Positions 397-13,719 of a stretch of 20,224 nt of DNA are shown piece by piece (the first letter of the stretch is position 1; each line of letters opens with the position of its first letter). Below the pieces are notes generated by a model that was not told the DNA's origin, searched no databases, and saw only the letters and a program-made list of their open reading frames with translations. The stretch is from positions 1-20,224 of the IMG/VR virus record IMGVR_UViG_3300031669_000301; one strand, given 5' to 3'. The translations under genes were made by a program, and so were the position numbers. The stretch comes from a virus.

Positions 397-1950
397 ATGT
401 CAGACGCAATCGTCAAAAACCTAAGCTTTGGAGACGAAGCTAAGGAACAATTATTTGAAGGTATAGAAAAACTCACGAAAGCCGTTAGCTCCACATTAGG
501 GGCTAGCGGTAAACGTGTAATATTAGAAGATGGCGCAGGTAAGCCTGTTATTACAAAAGATGGTGTAACTGTTGCCGATTCAATTATACTACTGGATCCT
601 ATAGAAAATATGGGTGCTACGCTTTTGAAAGAAGCTGCTAGGAAAACTGTTAAAGAAGCTGGCGACGGAACAACAACGGCTACAGTGCTAGCGCACTCAA
701 TATTAAAACAAGCTTACCCTAAATTAAAAGAGCTTGGTCCTAGAAAAGTAAAACAGGGTATTGATGATGCAGTAGATAAAGTAATAAAATATATTGAAAA
801 AAATTCTGTTAAAGTAACAGGAGATATGGTAAATCAAGTTGCTACTATATCTACAAACAACGATAAAGAATTAGGTTCAGTTATTGCAGAAGCTTTTAGA
901 TTAGTAGATGAAACAGGTATTGTTATGATGGAACAAACTGAATCATCAAAAACTACAGCTGAATTAATTGATGGTATTCAATATGAACAAGGATTAACTA
1001 ATTCTCATTTTGTTACTAGAAAAGATAATAGAATTGCTGAATTGGAAAAAGCTTATGTATTGCTTATAGAATCACCCGTTGAAAATATAAGGAAGATACA
1101 ATCAATATTAGAGTTTGTTATTAAAAATAATAAACCTTTACTTATAATTGCTGACACGGACCCAACGGTTATATCGGCATTAGCAATGAATAAAGTAAAA
1201 GGTAATATAAAAGTAAATGTTATCAATGCTCCTGTATACGGGGTTAATAGAAAAGATACATTTTCTGATATTGCTTTATTAACCGGTGCTACAGTAATAA
1301 ATGAAGATTTAGGTGATGATATGGATTTAATTCAACCTGAGCACTTAGGCTTTTGTGAAAAAGCTATTACTAATGATACTGAAACAATAATTAAAGTATC
1401 TGATATTCCGGAAGCTGTAGAAGAGTTAATTAAAAGTGTTAAACAAGATCTTAAAAAAGCAACTGTACCACCTGAAATACAAAAGCTTGAAAAAAGAATA
1501 GCTAGATTATCAGCTAAAATTTCCACTGTAAAAGTTGGTGCGGATTCAAGTATAGAATTAAAAGAAAAAACCGATAGGGTAGAAGACGCTATCTGTGCTA
1601 CTAAAGCCGCTATTAAAGAAGGTATTGTTGCCGGTGGCGGGGTAGCATTATTAAATGCTTCTATGTTTATCAAACCTAAAGATGAAGCTGAAAGCATCCT
1701 TTTGGACGCAATTAAAGCTCCCTATCACACTATCTTAGACAACGCTAATATTAGCGAAGCACATTCAGAAAAGAAAGGATGGGGATTAGATGTGATAACG
1801 GGTAAATCGGTTAATATGGTTAAAGCCGGAATAATCGATCCTCTACTTGTAACTAAAGCTGCCCTTAAAAACGCGGCATCTGTTGCAACTACTATTTTAT
1901 CTACTGATTGTATAATTAATAACTTAAGGGTTAATGAAGGCAATAGGTAG
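397..1950 (+). CDS. groEL: Phage-encoded GroEL-type chaperonin (Cpn60)
   Basis: A 517-residue group I chaperonin, slightly shorter than the roughly 540-548 of bacterial GroEL. ATPase elements are intact: ITKDG with the nucleotide Asp at 55, GDGTTT at 89-94, VAGGGVAL at 411-418 and the hydrolytic Asp in RVEDA (D397). The apical domain (about 190-375) is divergent. By eye against E. coli, F204 is kept (F205 here), but Y199, Y203 and L234 align with Leu, His and Gln. The equatorial stretch around 443-463, where E. coli has R452 and E461 inter-ring contacts, is shortened and changed. The C-terminus lacks the GGM-repeat tail and ends LRVNEGNR. The gene overlaps groES by 17 bases. It presumably folds phage proteins, with capsid or tail proteins the obvious clients, in the host cytoplasm; client identity and ring number are inferred. 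Confidence 0.96.
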   Translation: MSDAIVKNLSFGDEAKEQLFEGIEKLTKAVSSTLGASGKRVILEDGAGKPVITKDGVTVADSIILLDPIENMGATLLKEAARKTVKEAGDGTTTATVLAHSILKQAYPKLKELGPRKVKQGIDDAVDKVIKYIEKNSVKVTGDMVNQVATISTNNDKELGSVIAEAFRLVDETGIVMMEQTESSKTTAELIDGIQYEQGLTNSHFVTRKDNRIAELEKAYVLLIESPVENIRKIQSILEFVIKNNKPLLIIADTDPTVISALAMNKVKGNIKVNVINAPVYGVNRKDTFSDIALLTGATVINEDLGDDMDLIQPEHLGFCEKAITNDTETIIKVSDIPEAVEELIKSVKQDLKKATVPPEIQKLEKRIARLSAKISTVKVGADSSIELKEKTDRVEDAICATKAAIKEGIVAGGGVALLNASMFIKPKDEAESILLDAIKAPYHTILDNANISEAHSEKKGWGLDVITGKSVNMVKAGIIDPLLVTKAALKNAASVATTILSTDCIINNLRVNEGNR

Positions 1951-2194
1951 AAATTTAATTATAGAAAAAGAAAAGCAAGGAGCATCAGAGACCAAAGGAG
2001 GTTTGATACTGGGTGAAAAGCAAAGAGAAGATCTGAGATACAATAAAGCAAAAGTTATATCTACAGGATCTGATATTAAGGGTATAAAAGAAAACGATCT
2101 TATTTATTACGATAGACACGCTGGTCATAATATTGAAATAAATAAAAAAATATACCAAGTAATAAAAGATTCCGATATAGTAATAGTTTTATGA
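1934..2194 (+). CDS. groES: GroES-type co-chaperonin (Cpn10)
   Basis: An 86-residue Cpn10, shorter than E. coli GroES (97). The N-terminal strand KAIGRNLIIEK is followed by a mobile loop (about 14-32) with GGLIL at 22-26, the position of the GroEL-contacting hydrophobic tripeptide in GroES. The second half has IKENDLIYYDRHAG, and the C-terminal strand IYQVIKDSDIVIVL matches the LIMSESDILAI strand of GroES. The region corresponding to the GroES roof hairpin appears reduced, as in the phage T4 co-chaperonin gp31. The start ATG lies inside the last codons of groEL and the stop overlaps the next gene by four bases (ATGA), so translation is probably coupled. The lid function with the adjacent GroEL is inferred from family and context. 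Confidence 0.92.
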   Translation: MKAIGRNLIIEKEKQGASETKGGLILGEKQREDLRYNKAKVISTGSDIKGIKENDLIYYDRHAGHNIEINKKIYQVIKDSDIVIVL

Positions 2195-5300: not shown

Positions 5301-5531
5301 ATGTCAAGTATTATAAGAAAGATCAGTATTGGAGCTGATTATAAAAATGATGCTATGCATTACTCTATAGGACAGGAAGTCTACGGTGGTCATAAAATAG
5401 CTTATATCATATTTGAAGATACTGACAGTTCTTATAATATTCATATTAAAAAAAATGATGAGGTAGTACCATGGAAAAAGTTTAACAGCAACATGGCTAT
5501 TTCTGTTGAATATGATTTAAAGTATGAATAG
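5301..5531 (+). CDS. Small beta-strand protein, unknown
   Basis: A 76-residue protein beginning SSIIRKISIGADYKNDAMHY, followed by alternating polar/hydrophobic segments (IAYIIFED, YNIHIKK) and the end WKKFNSNMAISVEYDLKYE. The pattern suggests a compact beta-sheet or barrel. From memory it is conserved as a hypothetical protein next to the terminase region of marine phages. Its last eight bases overlap the start of the two-barrel GroES-like gene (ATGAATAG), so the two are probably translationally coupled and may act together. No function is recognised. Confidence 0.7.
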   Translation: MSSIIRKISIGADYKNDAMHYSIGQEVYGGHKIAYIIFEDTDSSYNIHIKKNDEVVPWKKFNSNMAISVEYDLKYE

Positions 5532-6129
5532 TCTTTATGATTTTATTGTTGAACCTATTGGTGAAAGATATAGTAACACCATAGAAGTAGACAATTTAAA
5601 GCTAATTTTAAATACAAAAATTGAATCTTACAAGTTTGTAAATAAAACAGCTAAAGTAATAAGTGTACCACTTGCTTACAAAACTGTAATAAAGCCTGGG
5701 GATCACGTAATTATACATCATAACGTATTTAGAAGGTATTACGATATTAAAGGAAAAGAAAAAAATAGCAGTAAATATTTTAAAGACAATCTTTATTTCT
5801 GTCAACCTGATCAAATATATATGTACAAAAAACAAAACAAATGGAAGTCCTTTATGGATCGTTGTTTTGTAAAGCCAATTTTAAATAACGACAATCTAAG
5901 CTTAGATAAAACAAAAAGCCTTGTTGGTATATTAAGATATGGTAATAGCTCCTTAAACGAGCTTAAAATAGCTCCTGGTGACCTGGTAGGGTATACGCCG
6001 AATAGTGAATGGGAATTTATTATTGATAATGAGCTTTTATATTGTATGAAATCAAATGATATTGTTATTAAATATGAACATCAAGGAAACGAAACTAAAT
6101 ATAATCCAAGCTGGGCAAAAAGCAGTTGA
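5524..6129 (+). CDS. Tandem GroES-like (double Cpn10 barrel) protein
   Basis: A 201-residue protein that reads as two related GroES-like units. Unit 1 has FIVEPIG (7-13), a loop with LKLIL (25-29) where Cpn10 has its mobile loop, AKVISV (43-48), IKPGDHVIIH (56-65) and NLYFCQPDQIYMYK (89-102). Unit 2 repeats FVKPIL (115-120), VGILRYG (134-140), IAPGDLVGYT (149-158) and DNELLYCMKSNDIVIKYE (168-185). The last segment closely parallels the GroES strand DNEEVLIMSESDILAI. Unit 2 lacks the mobile loop. The end YNPSWAKSS overlaps the next gene by 56 bases. It could be a second co-chaperonin for the phage GroEL, a lid variant for one client, or a barrel protein reused in head assembly. The GroES relation is my reading of the sequence; the gene itself is certain. 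Confidence 0.75.
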   Translation: MNSLYDFIVEPIGERYSNTIEVDNLKLILNTKIESYKFVNKTAKVISVPLAYKTVIKPGDHVIIHHNVFRRYYDIKGKEKNSSKYFKDNLYFCQPDQIYMYKKQNKWKSFMDRCFVKPILNNDNLSLDKTKSLVGILRYGNSSLNELKIAPGDLVGYTPNSEWEFIIDNELLYCMKSNDIVIKYEHQGNETKYNPSWAKSS

Positions 6130-6340
6130 GGAATTAATTAAGGTAGCTAAAGAAGCAATAGTAGATTCTGATGATGATATATCTGCGGATAGATTAAAAA
6201 ACGCTGCAGCAACAAAAAAATTAGCAATATTCGATGCATTTGAAATTCTTACAAGAATAGAAAATGAAAAAAACATATTAGAAGCTAACGATAAAACCTC
6301 AAAGCAATTTGGTGGTTTTGCCGAAAAAAGATCTAAGTAA
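6074..6340 (+). CDS. Probable small terminase subunit
   Basis: An 88-residue helical protein (start at 6074). It has a first helix GQKAVEELIKVAKEAI, an acidic turn (VDSDDDISADRL), the helix KNAAATKKLAIFDAFEILTR and a charged tail ending GGFAEKRSK. Size, helicity and position immediately before the large terminase (TAATG overlap) support a terminase small subunit or an equivalent packaging factor that recognises phage DNA. No clear HTH is visible, so the name rests mainly on context. An in-frame ATG at 6056 would add six residues (MILLLN) and lengthen the overlap with the previous gene to 74 bases; 6074 follows ATTAAAT and is preferred. The first 56 bases are coded in two frames. Confidence 0.65.
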   Translation: MNIKETKLNIIQAGQKAVEELIKVAKEAIVDSDDDISADRLKNAAATKKLAIFDAFEILTRIENEKNILEANDKTSKQFGGFAEKRSK

Positions 6341-8559
6341 TGTACCAACAAACATTATATAAAGTATTAGATGATCATATAAAGCCTAATACTTTAAAAA
6401 GATTAAATAGACTAAAAAAGTTTAAGTACGGCTATAACAAAGAATACGATATAGTAGTTATAAGTAAAAACGGTACAGTTGGTGAAATATATGAAATTCA
6501 AAACCTTAAAATTGGATTACCATTAGTAGATAAAATTTATCAAAGAAGTAAAGTCAAAGCAGAACAATATTGGGAAAGACTTCCTTTTCCAGAACAATTA
6601 GTTAAAATAAAATCTGTATTTGATTGGAATAAATACCCTGATAGTTTTAAAGAAAATTGGTACGATTATATTGATAACGAATTTAGATATAGAGATGAAG
6701 GGTTTACGTTTTATAATAAAGGGGTTGCAACTTATGTTACTGGTTCTCATTACATGTACTTGCAGCACACCAAGATTGATGTGGGGGCAGCAGACTTTAG
6801 GGAGTCGAATAGATTATTCTTTATATTTTGGGAGGCCTGTAAGGCCGATGACCGATGTTATGGTCTTATCTACCTCAAAAATAGACGGTCTGGGTTTAGC
6901 TTCATGGGATCGTCAGAGGTTGTTAACCAGGCAACAATGTCAAGTGATTCTAGATTTGGAATATTATCAAAGACGGGAGCTGATGCGAAAAAAATGTTTA
7001 CCGATAAGGTTGTACCAATATCCACAAACTACCCGTTCTTTTTCAAGCCGATACAGGACGGAATGGACAGGCCGAAAACCGAGCTTGCGTACAGAGTCCC
7101 GGCGTCAAAATTAACTAGAAGAAAAATTGAAATAGGTGAAAAGCTAGATGAAATTGATGGGCTTGACACAACTATTGACTGGAAAAATACGGGTGACAAC
7201 AGTTATGATGGTGAAAAATTAAAATTATTAGTTCACGATGAATCTGGTAAATGGGAAAGACCAGATAATATATTAAATAACTGGCGAGTAACTAAAACTA
7301 CTTTAAGATTAGGAAGCAAGATAGTTGGAAAATGCATGATGGGGTCTACCTCAAACGCATTAGATAAAGGAGGTGAAAACTTTAAAAAACTTTACAATGG
7401 CTCGGACGTTACTAAAAGAAACCGCAATGGACAGACTAGTACAGGATTATATAGTTTGTTCATACCTATGGAATGGAATTACGAAGGATTCATTGATATG
7501 TATGGATTACCTGTATTCGACACCCCTGATGAAGAAGTCAAAGGGATTGATGGCCAATGGATTGACACTGGAGTAATTGAATATTGGCAAAATGAAGTAG
7601 AAGGATTAAAAAATGATCAAGACGCTTTAAACGAATTTTATAGGCAATTTCCTAGAACACAGGAGCATGCTTTTAGAGATGAAGCAAAACAATCGTTGTT
7701 TAATTTGTCTAAAATATATGAACAAATAGATTATGTTGAGGAAGCTAAATACAGTGGTTTAGTTACTCAAGGCAATTTTCAATGGGAAAACGGTATAAAA
7801 GATACTAAAGTAATCTTTATGCCGAGTAAAAACGGAAGATTTTTTATTACCTGGACACCACCATATCATTTGCAAAATAAAATTATTATAAAGAATGGTA
7901 TAAAATATCCCGGCAATGAAGACTTTGGTGCGTTTGGATGCGACAGTTATGATATATCAGGTACGGTAGACGGTAGAGGCTCTAAAGGTTCTTTGCATGG
8001 ATTAACAAAATTTACCATGGCTGATGTACCGCCAAACCAATTTTTTTTAGAATATGTAGCTAGACCTGATAATGCCGAAACATTTTTTGAAGATGTACTA
8101 ATGGCTTTAGTTTTTTACGGCATGCCAATATTAGCAGAAAACAACAAACCTCGACTATTATATTATATTAAAAGAAGGGGCTATAGAGGTTACTCAATGA
8201 ATAGACCCGATAAAGTATATAATAAATTATCTGTAACAGAAAGAGAAATAGGTGGAGTACCGAACTCTAGTGAAGATATGAAGCAAGCTCATGCCGCTGC
8301 TATTGAAACTTACATTAACGAACACATAGGTTTCAATAATGATAGTTATGGGAATATGTATTTTACTAGAACTTTAAATGATTGGGCAAAATTTAATTTA
8401 AATAATAGAACAAAACATGATGCGTCCATTAGTTCTGGGCTAGCTATTATGGCTTGTAATAAAAATAGATATGCACCAATTTCTAAAAAAGTATTTGAGC
8501 CAGTAAGTTTGCAAATAAGAAAATATAATAACGATGGAGTTACGTCAAAAATAATTTAA
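6340..8559 (+). CDS. terL: Terminase large subunit (ATPase-nuclease)
   Basis: A 739-residue DNA-packaging motor protein, longer than the usual 450-650, with about 170 residues ahead of the ATPase. The Walker A-like segment is KNRRSGFS (180-187), an adenine/arginine-type variant lacking the classic GKT. Walker B is LLVHDESG (296-303; D300, E301), and a coupling motif GSTSN lies at 335-339. The RNase H-like nuclease begins at GCDSYD (D535, D538), with a late acidic residue in HDASISSG (D694). It would dock on the portal, cut concatemers and pump DNA into the procapsid. About 6721-7200 (residues 128-287) is markedly GC-richer, near 42% against 23-30% on either side, with Leu CTC, Arg CGG and Pro CCG codons unusual here. 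Confidence 0.9.
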   Translation: MYQQTLYKVLDDHIKPNTLKRLNRLKKFKYGYNKEYDIVVISKNGTVGEIYEIQNLKIGLPLVDKIYQRSKVKAEQYWERLPFPEQLVKIKSVFDWNKYPDSFKENWYDYIDNEFRYRDEGFTFYNKGVATYVTGSHYMYLQHTKIDVGAADFRESNRLFFIFWEACKADDRCYGLIYLKNRRSGFSFMGSSEVVNQATMSSDSRFGILSKTGADAKKMFTDKVVPISTNYPFFFKPIQDGMDRPKTELAYRVPASKLTRRKIEIGEKLDEIDGLDTTIDWKNTGDNSYDGEKLKLLVHDESGKWERPDNILNNWRVTKTTLRLGSKIVGKCMMGSTSNALDKGGENFKKLYNGSDVTKRNRNGQTSTGLYSLFIPMEWNYEGFIDMYGLPVFDTPDEEVKGIDGQWIDTGVIEYWQNEVEGLKNDQDALNEFYRQFPRTQEHAFRDEAKQSLFNLSKIYEQIDYVEEAKYSGLVTQGNFQWENGIKDTKVIFMPSKNGRFFITWTPPYHLQNKIIIKNGIKYPGNEDFGAFGCDSYDISGTVDGRGSKGSLHGLTKFTMADVPPNQFFLEYVARPDNAETFFEDVLMALVFYGMPILAENNKPRLLYYIKRRGYRGYSMNRPDKVYNKLSVTEREIGGVPNSSEDMKQAHAAAIETYINEHIGFNNDSYGNMYFTRTLNDWAKFNLNNRTKHDASISSGLAIMACNKNRYAPISKKVFEPVSLQIRKYNNDGVTSKII

Positions 8560-8563
8560 ATAA

Positions 8564-10978
8564 ATGGTTTATACAAATTACAATAGTTCATTTCCAGACC
8601 AAGTAGTATCTGATGAAATAAAAAATAGTTACGACTATGGTCTACAAGTGGGGCAAGCTATTGAAAATGAATGGTTTAGACAAGATACCGGCGGTGACCG
8701 TTATTTGCAGAATTTTCAAAACTATCATAATCTTAGATTATATGCCAGAGGCGAACAGTCTGTTCAGAAGTATAAAGATGAATTATCCATAAATGGTGAT
8801 TTATCTTATTTAAATTTAGATTGGAAAATAGTACCTATAATACCTAAGTTTGTTGATATTATAGTAAATGGAATGGTGGACAAAGGCTATGAAATTAAAG
8901 CTTTTGCAAACGACCCATTTGCTATTAAAGAAAGAACAGATTTTGCTTTTAATGCATTACGCGATATTCAAAATAGAGAATATATTGAACAATTAAATCA
9001 ATTAACTGGTCAAAATTTTTATGCGAGTGCAGACCCAAAAGCTTTACCTGCAACTAGGGAAGAATTAGATGTTATGCTGCAATTAGATTATAAGCAAAGC
9101 ATTGAGATAGCAGAAGAAGAAGTTATAAATAATGTTTTTGATTTTAATAAATATGATGAAACAAAAAGAAAGATAGCTTACGACTTAACTGTATTAGGAA
9201 TTGGCGCTTCTAAAACAAGCTTTAATTTATCTGAAGGTATCAAAGTTAATTATGTAGATCCCGCAGCTCTTGTTTATTCTTATACAGAAGATCCTAATTT
9301 TGATGACATATATTATGTTGGCGAAGTTAAAAATTTAAGTCTTTCTGAAGTAAAAAAACAATTCCCTAATTTAACTAATTCTGATTTAGAAGAAATTCAA
9401 AAATATAGAGGGCCAAGTAATTATAGTAATTACGTAAGAAATTATAGTGGTAATAATGATGACAATTTAGTTTCTATATTATTTTTTGAATATAAAACTT
9501 ATGCTAATCAAGTATTTAAATTAAAATACACTGACCAAGGCTTAGAAAAAATATTAGAAAAAAACGACAGCTTCAATCCTCCAGAAAGCGATAACTTTGA
9601 AAAAGTAAGTAGAAGTATTGAGGTATTATATACAGGAGCTAAGGTTTTAGGAATGCCTAAAATATTAGATTGGAAGTTATCTGAAAATATGACTAGGCCT
9701 TATGGTAATGTTACTAAAGTTAACATGAATTATTCCATCTGCGCGCCTAGATTATATAAAGGTAGAATTGATTCAGTTGTAAACAAGATAACTTCTTTTG
9801 CAGATATGATTCAATTAACCCATTTAAAATTGCAACAGGTTTTGTCAAGAGTTGTACCAGATGGGGTGTATTTAGATATGGATGGTTTGGCCGAGGTTGA
9901 TTTAGGTAATGGAACCAATTATAATCCAGCGGAAGCACTAAACATGTATTTCCAAACCGGTAGCATCGTTGGTAGATCATTAACACAAGAGGGTGATTTA
10001 AATAGAGGTAAAGTACCAATTCAAGAATTACAGACATCAAATGGTATGTCTAAAATTTCCGCTTTAATCCAAACTTATCAATATTATTTACAAATGATAA
10101 GAGATACTACAGGATTAAATGAAGCTGTGGATGGTAGTTCACCTGATAAAAATGCTTTAGTAGGACTACAAAAAATGGCAGCCGCAAATTCAAATGTAGC
10201 TGTTAGACACATATTGAAAGCTTTAATGTATATTACAATAAGAAATGCAGAAAATATCGGTCTTAGAGTAAATGATGCTTTGCAATTCCCATTAACAAAA
10301 GAAGCTTTGCTAAGCAGTATTAATACTTTCAATGTAAATACATTAGAAGAGATTGCTAAATTAGATATACACAATTTTGGTATATTCTTAGAGCTAGAAC
10401 CAGATGCTGAAGAGAAAGCAATGCTTGAGCAAAATATTCAAGTTTCATTGCAACAAAATTCTATTAATCTTGAGGATGCTATTGATATTAGAGAAATAAG
10501 AAATATTAAGTTAGCTAATCAAGTATTAAAATTAAGAAGAACTAAAAGAGCTGAACAACAACAAGCTGCTCAACTGGCTAATATTCAAGCGCAAGGCCAA
10601 TCTAATGCACAAGCTTCAGAAGCAGCTGCTTTAGCTGAGGTGCAAAAACAACAAGCATTAGCTGAAACAAAAGTACAAATTGAAAAAGCAAAGTCTGAGT
10701 TTGAAATAAATAAAATGGAACAAGAAGCTTTAATTAAAAAACAATTAATGGCTGAAGAGTTCCAATACAAAATGAAGCTTGCTCAAATAGAAGCAGACGC
10801 GCAAGCAATGAAAGAAAAACAAATAGAAGATCGTAAAGATCAAAGAGTTAAAATTCAAGGAACTCAACAATCTGAACTTATAGATCAAAGAAAAAATGAT
10901 CTATTGCCTAAAGATTTTGAATCATCAGGTAATGATAATCTAGGCGGGTTTGGATTAGAGCAATTTGAACCAAGGTAA
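8564..10978 (+). CDS. Portal protein
   Basis: An 804-residue protein directly after the large terminase and before the scaffold and capsid genes, the canonical portal position. The N-terminal part contains FVDIIVNGMVDKGYEI and a middle domain with helices (EEEVINNVFDFNKYDETK) and beta segments (VDPAALVYSY). The region around RDTTGLNEAVDGSSPDKNAL (about 511-530) fits the portal crown/clip transition. Residues about 655-765 form a long Gln/Ala/Lys/Glu-rich helix, a coiled coil or barrel-like extension as in podovirus portals, and the tail ends GGFGLEQFEPR. Twelve subunits would form the DNA entry ring and anchor the tail. The call is based on size, context and this architecture rather than a short catalytic motif. 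Confidence 0.85.
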   Translation: MVYTNYNSSFPDQVVSDEIKNSYDYGLQVGQAIENEWFRQDTGGDRYLQNFQNYHNLRLYARGEQSVQKYKDELSINGDLSYLNLDWKIVPIIPKFVDIIVNGMVDKGYEIKAFANDPFAIKERTDFAFNALRDIQNREYIEQLNQLTGQNFYASADPKALPATREELDVMLQLDYKQSIEIAEEEVINNVFDFNKYDETKRKIAYDLTVLGIGASKTSFNLSEGIKVNYVDPAALVYSYTEDPNFDDIYYVGEVKNLSLSEVKKQFPNLTNSDLEEIQKYRGPSNYSNYVRNYSGNNDDNLVSILFFEYKTYANQVFKLKYTDQGLEKILEKNDSFNPPESDNFEKVSRSIEVLYTGAKVLGMPKILDWKLSENMTRPYGNVTKVNMNYSICAPRLYKGRIDSVVNKITSFADMIQLTHLKLQQVLSRVVPDGVYLDMDGLAEVDLGNGTNYNPAEALNMYFQTGSIVGRSLTQEGDLNRGKVPIQELQTSNGMSKISALIQTYQYYLQMIRDTTGLNEAVDGSSPDKNALVGLQKMAAANSNVAVRHILKALMYITIRNAENIGLRVNDALQFPLTKEALLSSINTFNVNTLEEIAKLDIHNFGIFLELEPDAEEKAMLEQNIQVSLQQNSINLEDAIDIREIRNIKLANQVLKLRRTKRAEQQQAAQLANIQAQGQSNAQASEAAALAEVQKQQALAETKVQIEKAKSEFEINKMEQEALIKKQLMAEEFQYKMKLAQIEADAQAMKEKQIEDRKDQRVKIQGTQQSELIDQRKNDLLPKDFESSGNDNLGGFGLEQFEPR

Positions 10979-12279: not shown

Positions 12280-13719
12280 ATGGCAAATGTTTCACCTGCT
12301 TTTGGTTCAATTAAACCAAGTCAAAAGCAACAAATACTTAGTGATAACTACCTAAGTTTTACAGATGGTACTAATGACTTCGCTCAACAGTACCTACCCG
12401 AAATTTACGAGCAAGAAGTAGAAAGATATGGTAACAGAACTTTATCTGGCTTCTTAAGAATGGTTGGTGCAGAAATGCCCATGACTTCTGATCAAGTTGT
12501 ATGGTCTGAGCAAAATAGACTACATGTTGCTTATGCTAATGTAACTGTTGCAACTGGTTCTACTTTAACATTCGTATTGAATGCTACTGCTGGAGCTAGC
12601 TTTGTTGCAAACGTTATTTCTGCAAATGATACTATTGTTCTTATGGATCCTGCTACAGGAAAAGAACTAAAATGTTTTGTAGAAACTAGCGTTGATACTT
12701 CTCCTACTTTGGCTACTTTAACTGTTAAGCCTTATACTCAAGGAGATCTAATTGCTACTGGTGGTGGTTCTGAAATTGATTTTACAGGACTAACAACTGG
12801 TAAGATTTTTGTTTATGGTTCTGAATTTAAGAAAGGAACTGCTGACGGTCGTGAGCGTTCTATCACACCTTCTTTCACTCAATACAACAATTCACCTATC
12901 ATCATTAAAGATAAGTATGCAATTTCTGGATCAGACGCTGCACAAATCGGATGGGTTGAAGTTGCTACTGAGGATGGTACTTCTGGATTCCTATGGTATC
13001 TAAAAGCTGAGTCTGAAACAAGACTACGTTTTGAAGATTATCTAGAAATGGCAGTTGTTGAAGGTGAACTAGTAAGCGGAACTTCTACATTGACTGTAAA
13101 AGGTACTGAAGGACTTTTTGCTTCTATTCAATCAAGAGGTAACGTTCTTAATAACTTTACTGGTGGAGCTACAGGACTTACCGAATTTGATAGCATCTTG
13201 AAAAACTTAGATACTCAAGGAGCTATTGAAGAGAACATGCTTTTTGTTAATAGAGGACTTGCTCTTGATATTGACGGCATGCTAGCTAATGTTTCTGATG
13301 GTGCTCAAGGTGGTACTGCTTATGGATTGTTTGAAAATTCTGAAGAAATGGCATTGAATCTTGGATTTAGTGGTTTCCGCAGAGGATCTTACGATTTTTA
13401 TAAGACAGATTGGAAATATCTAAATGATGCTTCTACAAGAGGTGCAGTTGCAGTTTCTGGTATTGAAGGAGTTTTGATTCCTGCAGGTACCTCAACTGTT
13501 TACGACCAAATTTTGGGAACTAACATCCGTAGACCTTTCTTGCATGTAAGGTATAGAGCTTCTCAGGCTGATGATCGAAGAATGAAATCTTGGATTACTG
13601 GTTCTGTTGGAGGTGCTTATACTTCAGCGCTTGATGCTATGGAAGTACACTTCCTATCTGAAAGATGTCTTGTAACTCAAGGTGCAAACAATTTCGTATT
13701 GTTCACAGCTTCTGCATAG
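12280..13719 (+). CDS. Major capsid protein
   Basis: A 479-residue protein after the scaffold gene and ahead of a strong terminator, fitting the coat protein. Features include an extended N-terminal arm (SIKPSQKQQILSDNYLSF), long helix-like QQYLPEIYEQEVERYGNRT (about 36-54), a central beta-rich, Thr/Val/Ala-rich insertion (about 85-165), and a C-terminal half with mixed alpha/beta segments (RGVAVSGIEGVL-like) and acidic/basic helices. An HK97-type fold is expected but cannot be shown by motif. Codon use differs from neighbours: by hand count leucine is about 14 CTA, 11 CTT, 10 TTG and only 5 TTA, as expected for a very highly expressed gene. The leader TAATTAAAAAAAATTAAAA abuts the start. Confidence 0.88.
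   Translation: MANVSPAFGSIKPSQKQQILSDNYLSFTDGTNDFAQQYLPEIYEQEVERYGNRTLSGFLRMVGAEMPMTSDQVVWSEQNRLHVAYANVTVATGSTLTFVLNATAGASFVANVISANDTIVLMDPATGKELKCFVETSVDTSPTLATLTVKPYTQGDLIATGGGSEIDFTGLTTGKIFVYGSEFKKGTADGRERSITPSFTQYNNSPIIIKDKYAISGSDAAQIGWVEVATEDGTSGFLWYLKAESETRLRFEDYLEMAVVEGELVSGTSTLTVKGTEGLFASIQSRGNVLNNFTGGATGLTEFDSILKNLDTQGAIEENMLFVNRGLALDIDGMLANVSDGAQGGTAYGLFENSEEMALNLGFSGFRRGSYDFYKTDWKYLNDASTRGAVAVSGIEGVLIPAGTSTVYDQILGTNIRRPFLHVRYRASQADDRRMKSWITGSVGGAYTSALDAMEVHFLSERCLVTQGANNFVLFTASA

Follow-up and report, generated by a model that had tools for sequence, protein, structure and literature searches.

The closest described systems for the gene reported here are the fused co-chaperonins of plastids and the phage T4 protein gp31. 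Chloroplast CPN11, CPN20 and CPN23 are described as a heterotetramer (PMC8889267), and the chain counts of the solved structure 7ekq (one CPN11, one CPN23 and two CPN20) give 1+2+4, that is, seven barrels. Four functional GroES subunits of seven are cited as the minimum for GroEL binding, and an inactive Cpn20 mutant is reported to turn active once a single-domain Cpn10 is added (PMC4242682); lids of six or eight domains are reported to work as well (PMC5780408). T4 gp31 is described as a single-barrel homoheptamer that is used with the host GroEL and is needed for capsid protein folding (PMC6318259). It is a standing question why the co-chaperonins of chloroplasts are fused and how fusions with an even number of barrels can be accommodated by a chaperonin of seven-fold symmetry. 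The gene described here is located at 5524-6129 of the IMG/VR virus record IMGVR_UViG_3300031669_000301 (positions 1 to 20,224; this whole stretch of 20,224 nucleotides is called the window), and structure prediction has confirmed that its 201-residue product is a tandem Cpn10 by fold, with a GroES-type barrel predicted in both halves. The gene and the parts of the predicted fold are the following:

5524..6129, + strand: tandem Cpn10 co-chaperonin gene, an open reading frame (ORF) of 201 residues with its ATG at 5524 and a stop codon that ends at 6129 (PHROG 13932, AlphaFold2 model and best PDB matches 7ekq_R/Q)
5524..5838, + strand: barrel 1, residues 1-105 (Z 8.2 to 1wnr_C, 71 residues, 2.6 Å)
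5839..6075, + strand: barrel 2, residues 106-184 (Z 8.4 to GroES 8wuc_a, 78 residues, 2.4 Å; matched to single Cpn10s by hhalign)
5815..5850, + strand: beta-hairpin between the two barrels, made of the closing strand of barrel 1 and the opening strand of barrel 2, residues 98-109 (DSSP strands 98-103 and 106-109)

An AlphaFold2 model of the whole protein was built from a 54-sequence alignment, with a mean predicted local distance difference test score (pLDDT) of 86.9 and a predicted template modelling score (pTM) of 0.80, and it contains two GroES/Cpn10-type barrels in one chain, head to tail. An initial annotation, made from the sequence alone, had claimed two Cpn10-like copies in this protein, with plastid Cpn20 as the closest concept, and had proposed a structural comparison with GroES and Cpn20; in that comparison two GroES-type barrels were found and CPN20 and CPN23 were the best PDB matches, so that the analogy can now be sharpened to the 1+2+4 barrel ring. 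With Foldseek, the top match was 7ekq chain R, named Cpn20 co-chaperonin subunit (E 4.9e-5, TM 0.53, root-mean-square deviation 7.1), followed by chain Q, named Chaperonin 23 (7.3e-4, TM 0.48), and then by GroES and Cpn10 chains. The best VIA-align match over the whole chain was also 7ekq_R (Z 10.2, 157 residues, 4.0 Å), spanning residues 1-185, and single Cpn10s covered either half (1wnr_C residues 1-103, 8wuc_a residues 106-185). A viral structure library gave first A0A516LJK4, which has no name (E 1.8e-19); among its named entries, 'Chaperonin cpn10' of Cellulophaga phage phi18:3 was the best match. In GroES rings the corresponding last and first strands of adjacent subunits pair, and because the hairpin 98-103/106-109 joins these same strands, the fusion would resemble a captured subunit contact.

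As the sequence signal is weaker in the first half, residues 1-106 were also modelled separately, from 45 sequences. This model reached a pLDDT of 84.9, its best match was 3nx6 (Z 8.9, 62 residues, 1.8 Å), and the 15 top entries by Z (7.0-8.9) were all co-chaperonins (Cpn10/GroES, gp31, CPN20). An alcohol-dehydrogenase-type GroES fold for this half was rejected, with Z values not above 5.9 versus the 7.0-8.9 of the co-chaperonins.

Relatives of the tandem protein were found by direct searches in 77 phage records (68 Flavobacterium elemo phages, 7 Cellulophaga phages, Maribacter phage Panino and MW202828), and the Pachyviridae phages phi46:3 and phi18:3 carry relatives too. Among viral contigs, at least 597 of the 599 pattern-matching stretches listed for the window query are relatives, as are 540 of 545 for the MW202828 query, a set that may overlap the former; the elemo and phi38:1 queries gave 20 of 23 and 4 of 8, respectively, and none of the 13 viral-contig stretches matched with the Panino protein is a relative. 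Fifteen of 176 stretches from genome contigs are relatives, all of them in records of metagenome-assembled genomes (MAGs), whose titles name Bacteroidota in 12 cases and Aliivibrio, Ca. Aenigmatarchaeota and TMED88 in the rest. The group is widespread and most of its known member viruses infect Bacteroidota; the phage carrying the window tandem probably has its host in this phylum. The archaeal title belongs to a MAG chromosome (locus L243, CP070801.1, 864639-883193) that carries the tandem gene together with a terminase large subunit (TerL) gene of the same family, in a stretch with a G+C content of 36% at one edge and 40-46% elsewhere; a binning or assembly chimera seems likely here.

At the sequence level, the tandem is placed by profile match in PHROG 13932 ('co-chaperonin GroES', 200 positions), with residues 1-182 aligned to positions 1-197 (E 5.3e-28). 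The same family was matched by the relatives of phi46:3 (1.6e-101), phi38:1 (1.8e-82), MW202828 (3.8e-21), Panino (3.2e-19) and, over residues 1-142 only, elemo (4.9e-15), and the single GroES of the window matches the C half of the profile (3.8e-6). Four relatives exceed the curated Pfam Cpn10 cut-off of 21.1 bits: phi46:3 and phi18:3 (33.3 each), phi38:1 (28.2) and the one at locus L188 (24.1). Each half was also aligned with hhalign to a target of 17 phage single Cpn10s plus E. coli GroES, with column shuffles as background. The C half gave 92% with a score of 39.2 (shuffle maximum 17.5 of 40) and, in a wider alignment, 95% with 45.5 (17.3 of 100); the N half gave 32% with 25.2 over 22 columns (14.7 of 40) and 39% with 25.9 over 58 columns (18.0 of 100). 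The half-by-half profile check thus came out clear for the C half, and the N-half Cpn10 signal of the window clade is weaker than that of the C half, yet above background. Neither of the outcomes that would have contradicted the initial annotation, a fold lacking two GroES barrels or halves devoid of Cpn10 signal, was obtained. It is clearer in other lineages: residues 14-64 of the elemo protein match the single-GroES family phrog_3188 (3e-4), and the N half of phi46:3 alone, with a KTESGLEL loop, gave an hhalign value of 87.9%, obtained without a shuffle control, and no Cpn10 match in Pfam.

Other families were considered and rejected. The Lamin tail domain (PF00932, E 0.013, 16.3 bits) outranks Cpn10 for the window tandem in Pfam, and UPF0300 (E 4.7e-4, 20 bits) is the best Pfam match of the MAG relative at locus L234; both are below their own cut-offs. 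No GroES model of NCBIfam matched the window tandem up to E 10. Sequence alone fails to reach solved structures, since the matches of the family profile to PDB sequences are weak (alphaRep first at 0.054, then GroES at 0.11 and 0.12). An ORF artefact or chance motif is ruled out by purifying selection (median ratio of non-synonymous to synonymous substitution rates, dN/dS, of 0.19 in 45 pairs of 10 sequences), by the 53 distinct tandem protein sequences counted among the 80 viral-contig loci retained and by the profile scores above shuffles.

The initial annotation had described in each copy an xPGDxV motif followed by a strand ending in DxIxxxY. The first motif is present in both copies (KPGDHV and APGDLV); the second is in neither, the corresponding residues being DQIYMY and DIVIKY. 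Its statement that only the first copy has a mobile-loop-like insert holds for the window clade. The segments concerned are the following:

5557..5640, + strand: long mobile-loop-like segment of barrel 1, residues 12-39, with the hydrophobic patch LKLIL (model, alignment)
5884..5910, + strand: short turn of barrel 2 at the mobile-loop position, residues 121-129 (strands of the model stop at 120 and start again at 130)
5716..5793, + strand: family-specific segment of barrel 1, residues 65-90, with H65, N67 and G77 (conserved columns)
6076..6126, + strand: C-terminal tail, residues 185-201, overlapping the next ORF and present in the clade of the window (alignments)

In the model, residues 12-39 lie between strands 7-11 and 40-47, with block pLDDT values of 60-73 and a weak hairpin at 19-28. 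The segment between the first two strands of barrel 1 has 26-30 residues in 68/68 aligned sequences, and by the alignment rule the window clade has 29-30 residues in barrel 1 versus 11 in barrel 2. The barrel 2 segment reaches 20-22 residues only in the phi38:1-like and Pachyviridae sequences, whereas the window clade and the elemo, MW202828-like, Panino and other MAG sequences have 11-14 there (clade labels are our own); some lineages have two long segments per double and others one. By a crude rule a hydrophobic patch was found in 64/68 N segments and 11/68 C segments. The Pachyviridae genes (locus L247, 4029-4631, in phi46:3 and locus L249, 3029-3631, in phi18:3) encode a divergent tandem in which two segments are of loop length; elsewhere these phages also encode a single Cpn10. 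H65, N67 and G77 are invariant in the alignments made, which do not include the Pachyviridae, where this segment differs. The dN/dS of residues 184-201, the tail that overlaps the next ORF, is 0.59.

A normal GroES and a GroEL are encoded upstream in the window, as had been annotated, and the stop codon of the former (2194) is 3.3 kb before the tandem gene:

397..1950, + strand: GroEL, 517 residues, the proposed barrel to be closed by the lid (Pfam Cpn60, 203.5 bits)
1934..2194, + strand: single Cpn10 (GroES), 86 residues, with a GGLIL mobile loop, the proposed ring partner (Pfam Cpn10, 48.2 bits)

Such partners were looked for in 29 tandem-bearing phage and virus records (17 including the window, 10 more, and phi46:3 and phi18:3); four MAG assemblies, in which host chaperonins are present, were for that reason not counted. 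The tandem is accompanied by a single Cpn10 in 27/29 records and by a GroEL in 24/29. The two records lacking a single Cpn10 (39 and 42 kb) also lack GroEL and, being shorter than the complete relatives (60-77 kb), are probably fragments. Both Cpn10 forms are kept, with no detectable GroEL, in phi46:3, phi18:3 and record G009, and the Pachyviridae would therefore need host GroEL or another partner. Among the 16 phage GroELs aligned, D52, D87 and D398 are kept in 16/16. At the positions that we take to be GroES-contacting sites (204, 234, 237, 263 and 264), 204 and 237 remain hydrophobic and the other three vary. The GGM-rich tail that E. coli GroEL carries is missing from these 16, most of which also differ from it at 452 and 461-464, presumably ring-ring contacts; an altered GroEL ring assembly in these phages is possible.

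The reading favoured here, with a probability of about 0.55, is that the tandem Cpn10 co-chaperonin joins the single Cpn10 in a seven-barrel lid for the folding of virion proteins. The GroEL binding, ring composition and client that we infer are the following. Three doubles and one single would form one lid (2+2+2+1), as in the chloroplast CPN20/CPN23/CPN11 ring, and this lid would close the phage GroEL, or the host GroEL where the phage has none. In the window clade it would present four mobile loops, three from the one-loop doubles and one from the single, which is the reported minimum for GroEL binding. Its clients would be late proteins encoded in the same gene cluster, with the capsid protein, the client of T4 gp31, as the most likely one, and a late folding role fits the position of the tandem gene before those for TerL, portal and virion proteins. 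Residues 65-90, conserved in barrel 1, may form part of the dome lining and be suited to a capsid client. A fuller version, a chloroplast-style mixed lid in which only four loops bind GroEL while the three loop-less barrels and the barrel 1 segment shape an asymmetric chamber for virion proteins, phages and plastids having reached the same 2+2+2+1 arrangement possibly independently, is offered tentatively and is somewhat doubtful as a whole.

Several observations weigh against the mixed seven-barrel lid or the fold assignment on which it is built. The Pfam Cpn10 score (PF00166) of the window tandem is 14.9 bits, below the cut-off, and Pfam Cpn10 gave no match for the tandems of MW202828, Panino and elemo or for the MAG relative at locus L234. 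No recent internal duplication is visible in the sequence, the comparisons of the N half with the C half (16.9 and 17.4) being within the shuffle maxima (18.6 of 40 and 18.3 of 100). Foldseek gave nothing below E 0.001 for the N half alone (best 4.1e-3), and Z values of about 8 (range 7-8) for single Cpn10s are called common by the aligner's own note, so that the fold case for this half rests on the block of co-chaperonins ranking above everything else. The training structures of AlphaFold included Cpn10s. The loop motif of barrel 1 varies (GGVEF in Panino, TMAV in phi38:1), and residue L234 of GroEL is replaced by Q, E or A in 12/16 phage GroELs and V263 by A in 11/16. Finally, length was the main criterion by which the 29 records behind the partner counts were picked out of the 203 loci, and many of these records are near-relatives and not independent events.

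The tandem might instead form a separate lid of three or four doubles (six or eight barrels) for late virion clients, the single Cpn10 being the ordinary lid for other proteins. This is a live rival because six- or eight-domain lids are reported to work (PMC5780408), and the 3.3 kb between both genes in the window, together with their greater distance and opposite strands in elemo and phi38:1, could allow them to be timed separately; the doubles of Pachyviridae and the phi38:1-like phages, in addition, have two loop-length segments. However, single and double occur together in 27/29 records, including the three in which no GroEL was detected, and a lid built of one-loop chains would have three or four loops, no more than the four reported as the minimum. 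A lid of doubles only is thus considered unlikely.

The third reading concerns the neighbourhood of the gene, in which the following features were found:

5301..5531, + strand: 76-residue gene that overlaps the tandem start by 8 nt (a relative in the same place in other loci)
6074..6340, + strand: 88-residue ORF between tandem and TerL that overlaps the tandem 3' end by 56 nt (start codon chosen by us)
6340..8559, + strand: TerL (PHROG 6681, 1.7e-166)
8564..10978, + strand: portal protein (PHROG 6547, 1.3e-136)
12280..13719, + strand: virion structural protein (PHROG 13704, head and packaging, 8.9e-94)

GroEL, GroES, several small ORFs (a holin among them, PHROG 3427), the 76-residue ORF, the tandem, the 88-residue ORF, TerL, portal and virion protein genes form a co-directional run with gaps between neighbours of 34 nt or less, and the tandem gene overlaps the genes on both sides. 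From its position, the virion structural protein is the probable major capsid protein and a likely client. A TerL gene lies downstream of the tandem on the same strand in 201/203 loci, with its match starting more than 800 nt away in 16 of them; in the remaining two only 19 and 262 nt of sequence extend beyond the tandem match. Since the loci were found through the tandem gene, this linkage is no proof that each such TerL has a tandem, and in Tenacibaculum phage Gundel, which has a relative of this TerL, no tandem was annotated or detected, nor was any Cpn10 or GroEL detectable with Pfam. Relatives of the 76-residue gene are immediately upstream of the tandem in 201/203 loci (exceptions L188 and L189), and PHROG and Pfam searches gave no significant family match for it. 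The 88-residue ORF has relatives in 174/203 loci, and elemo, phi38:1 and Panino have in its place a longer TerL (about 876-879 residues vs 739) with an N-terminal extension; this ORF could be a small terminase that one lineage keeps as its own gene and that another has fused or replaced.

A small terminase gene often directly precedes TerL, and the 201/203 linkage, the conserved family-specific segment of barrel 1 and the weak or absent Pfam Cpn10 signal in most clades could all be explained if the GroES fold had been reused for virion assembly or packaging, as a small-terminase-like or portal-binding ring that no longer serves GroEL. Yet the C half retains its match to the Cpn10 profile and barrel 1 its loop-length segment in 68/68 sequences, the tandem co-occurs with Cpn10 and GroEL, and another small ORF occupies the slot before TerL in the window clade and in phi46:3. 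In addition, the virion flags from tandem mass spectrometry in the phi18:3 record mark other proteins and not the tandem (10 kb stretch). An assembly factor of this kind is therefore regarded as improbable, more so than the lid of doubles.

By far the least probable is a ring of single and tandem Cpn10 that would act on the host ClpP protease in the infected cell like the algal CPN11/20/23 ring, capping and blocking it. In its favour, the algal ring also binds ClpP, 7ekq being a ClpP-bound ring whose interaction is reported, in the title of a preprint cited by PMC8889267, to inhibit ClpP proteolysis, and three records hold both Cpn10 forms with no detectable GroEL, but host GroEL could serve those phages, as for T4 gp31, and 24/29 records carry their own GroEL.

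The initial annotation had known of no described double Cpn10 in phages. Among the papers listed, none was found on the double architecture in phages or on its pairing with a single Cpn10, a search in which one may have been missed; the protein itself is already catalogued as 'co-chaperonin GroES' or 'chaperonin cpn10' in PHROG 13932 and GenBank/RefSeq, with the tandem build unmentioned in the annotations consulted, and its relative in Calle_1 is annotated as 'chaperonin Cpn10'. A 'chaperonin cpn10' appears in the core protein list of Pervagoviridae given by Bartlau et al. 2021 (PMC8776804), and it would correspond to the TerL-adjacent tandem and not to the single Cpn10. When phage proteins are annotated as 'GroES' or 'cpn10', a distinct architecture can go unnoticed. 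A phage family with a double Cpn10, a single Cpn10 and usually a GroEL provides a compact natural series for testing the question of fused co-chaperonins, with members that have one or two long loop segments per double and with cultured Cellulophaga and Flavobacterium phages.

Compared with known systems, the tandem protein shares with ordinary GroES/Cpn10 (PF00166) the barrel fold, the GD motif, the last strand and the profile match of the C half, and differs from it in its double length, its score under the Pfam cut-off in the window copy and the absence of a long loop in barrel 2. Like T4 gp31, it would be a phage-encoded lid of Cpn10 fold linked to virion protein folding, and both predicted barrels match gp31 structures; unlike gp31, which is described as a single-barrel homoheptamer working with host GroEL (PMC6318259), it is double and is accompanied by a single Cpn10 and usually by a phage GroEL. 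The likeness is closest to chloroplast CPN20 and CPN23, AtCpn20/21 and apicoplast cpn20, which also combine a pair of head-to-tail GroES-type barrels in a single chain, are made beside a single-barrel Cpn10 and Cpn60, and include the solved structures nearest to the model. Plastid Cpn20 has mobile loops on both domains, whereas the window clade has one long mobile-loop segment and not two, barrel 2 having only 11 residues at that position; the phage-encoded tandem is, moreover, 13-14% identical to the Cpn20-type proteins, and a conserved segment is peculiar to its barrel 1.
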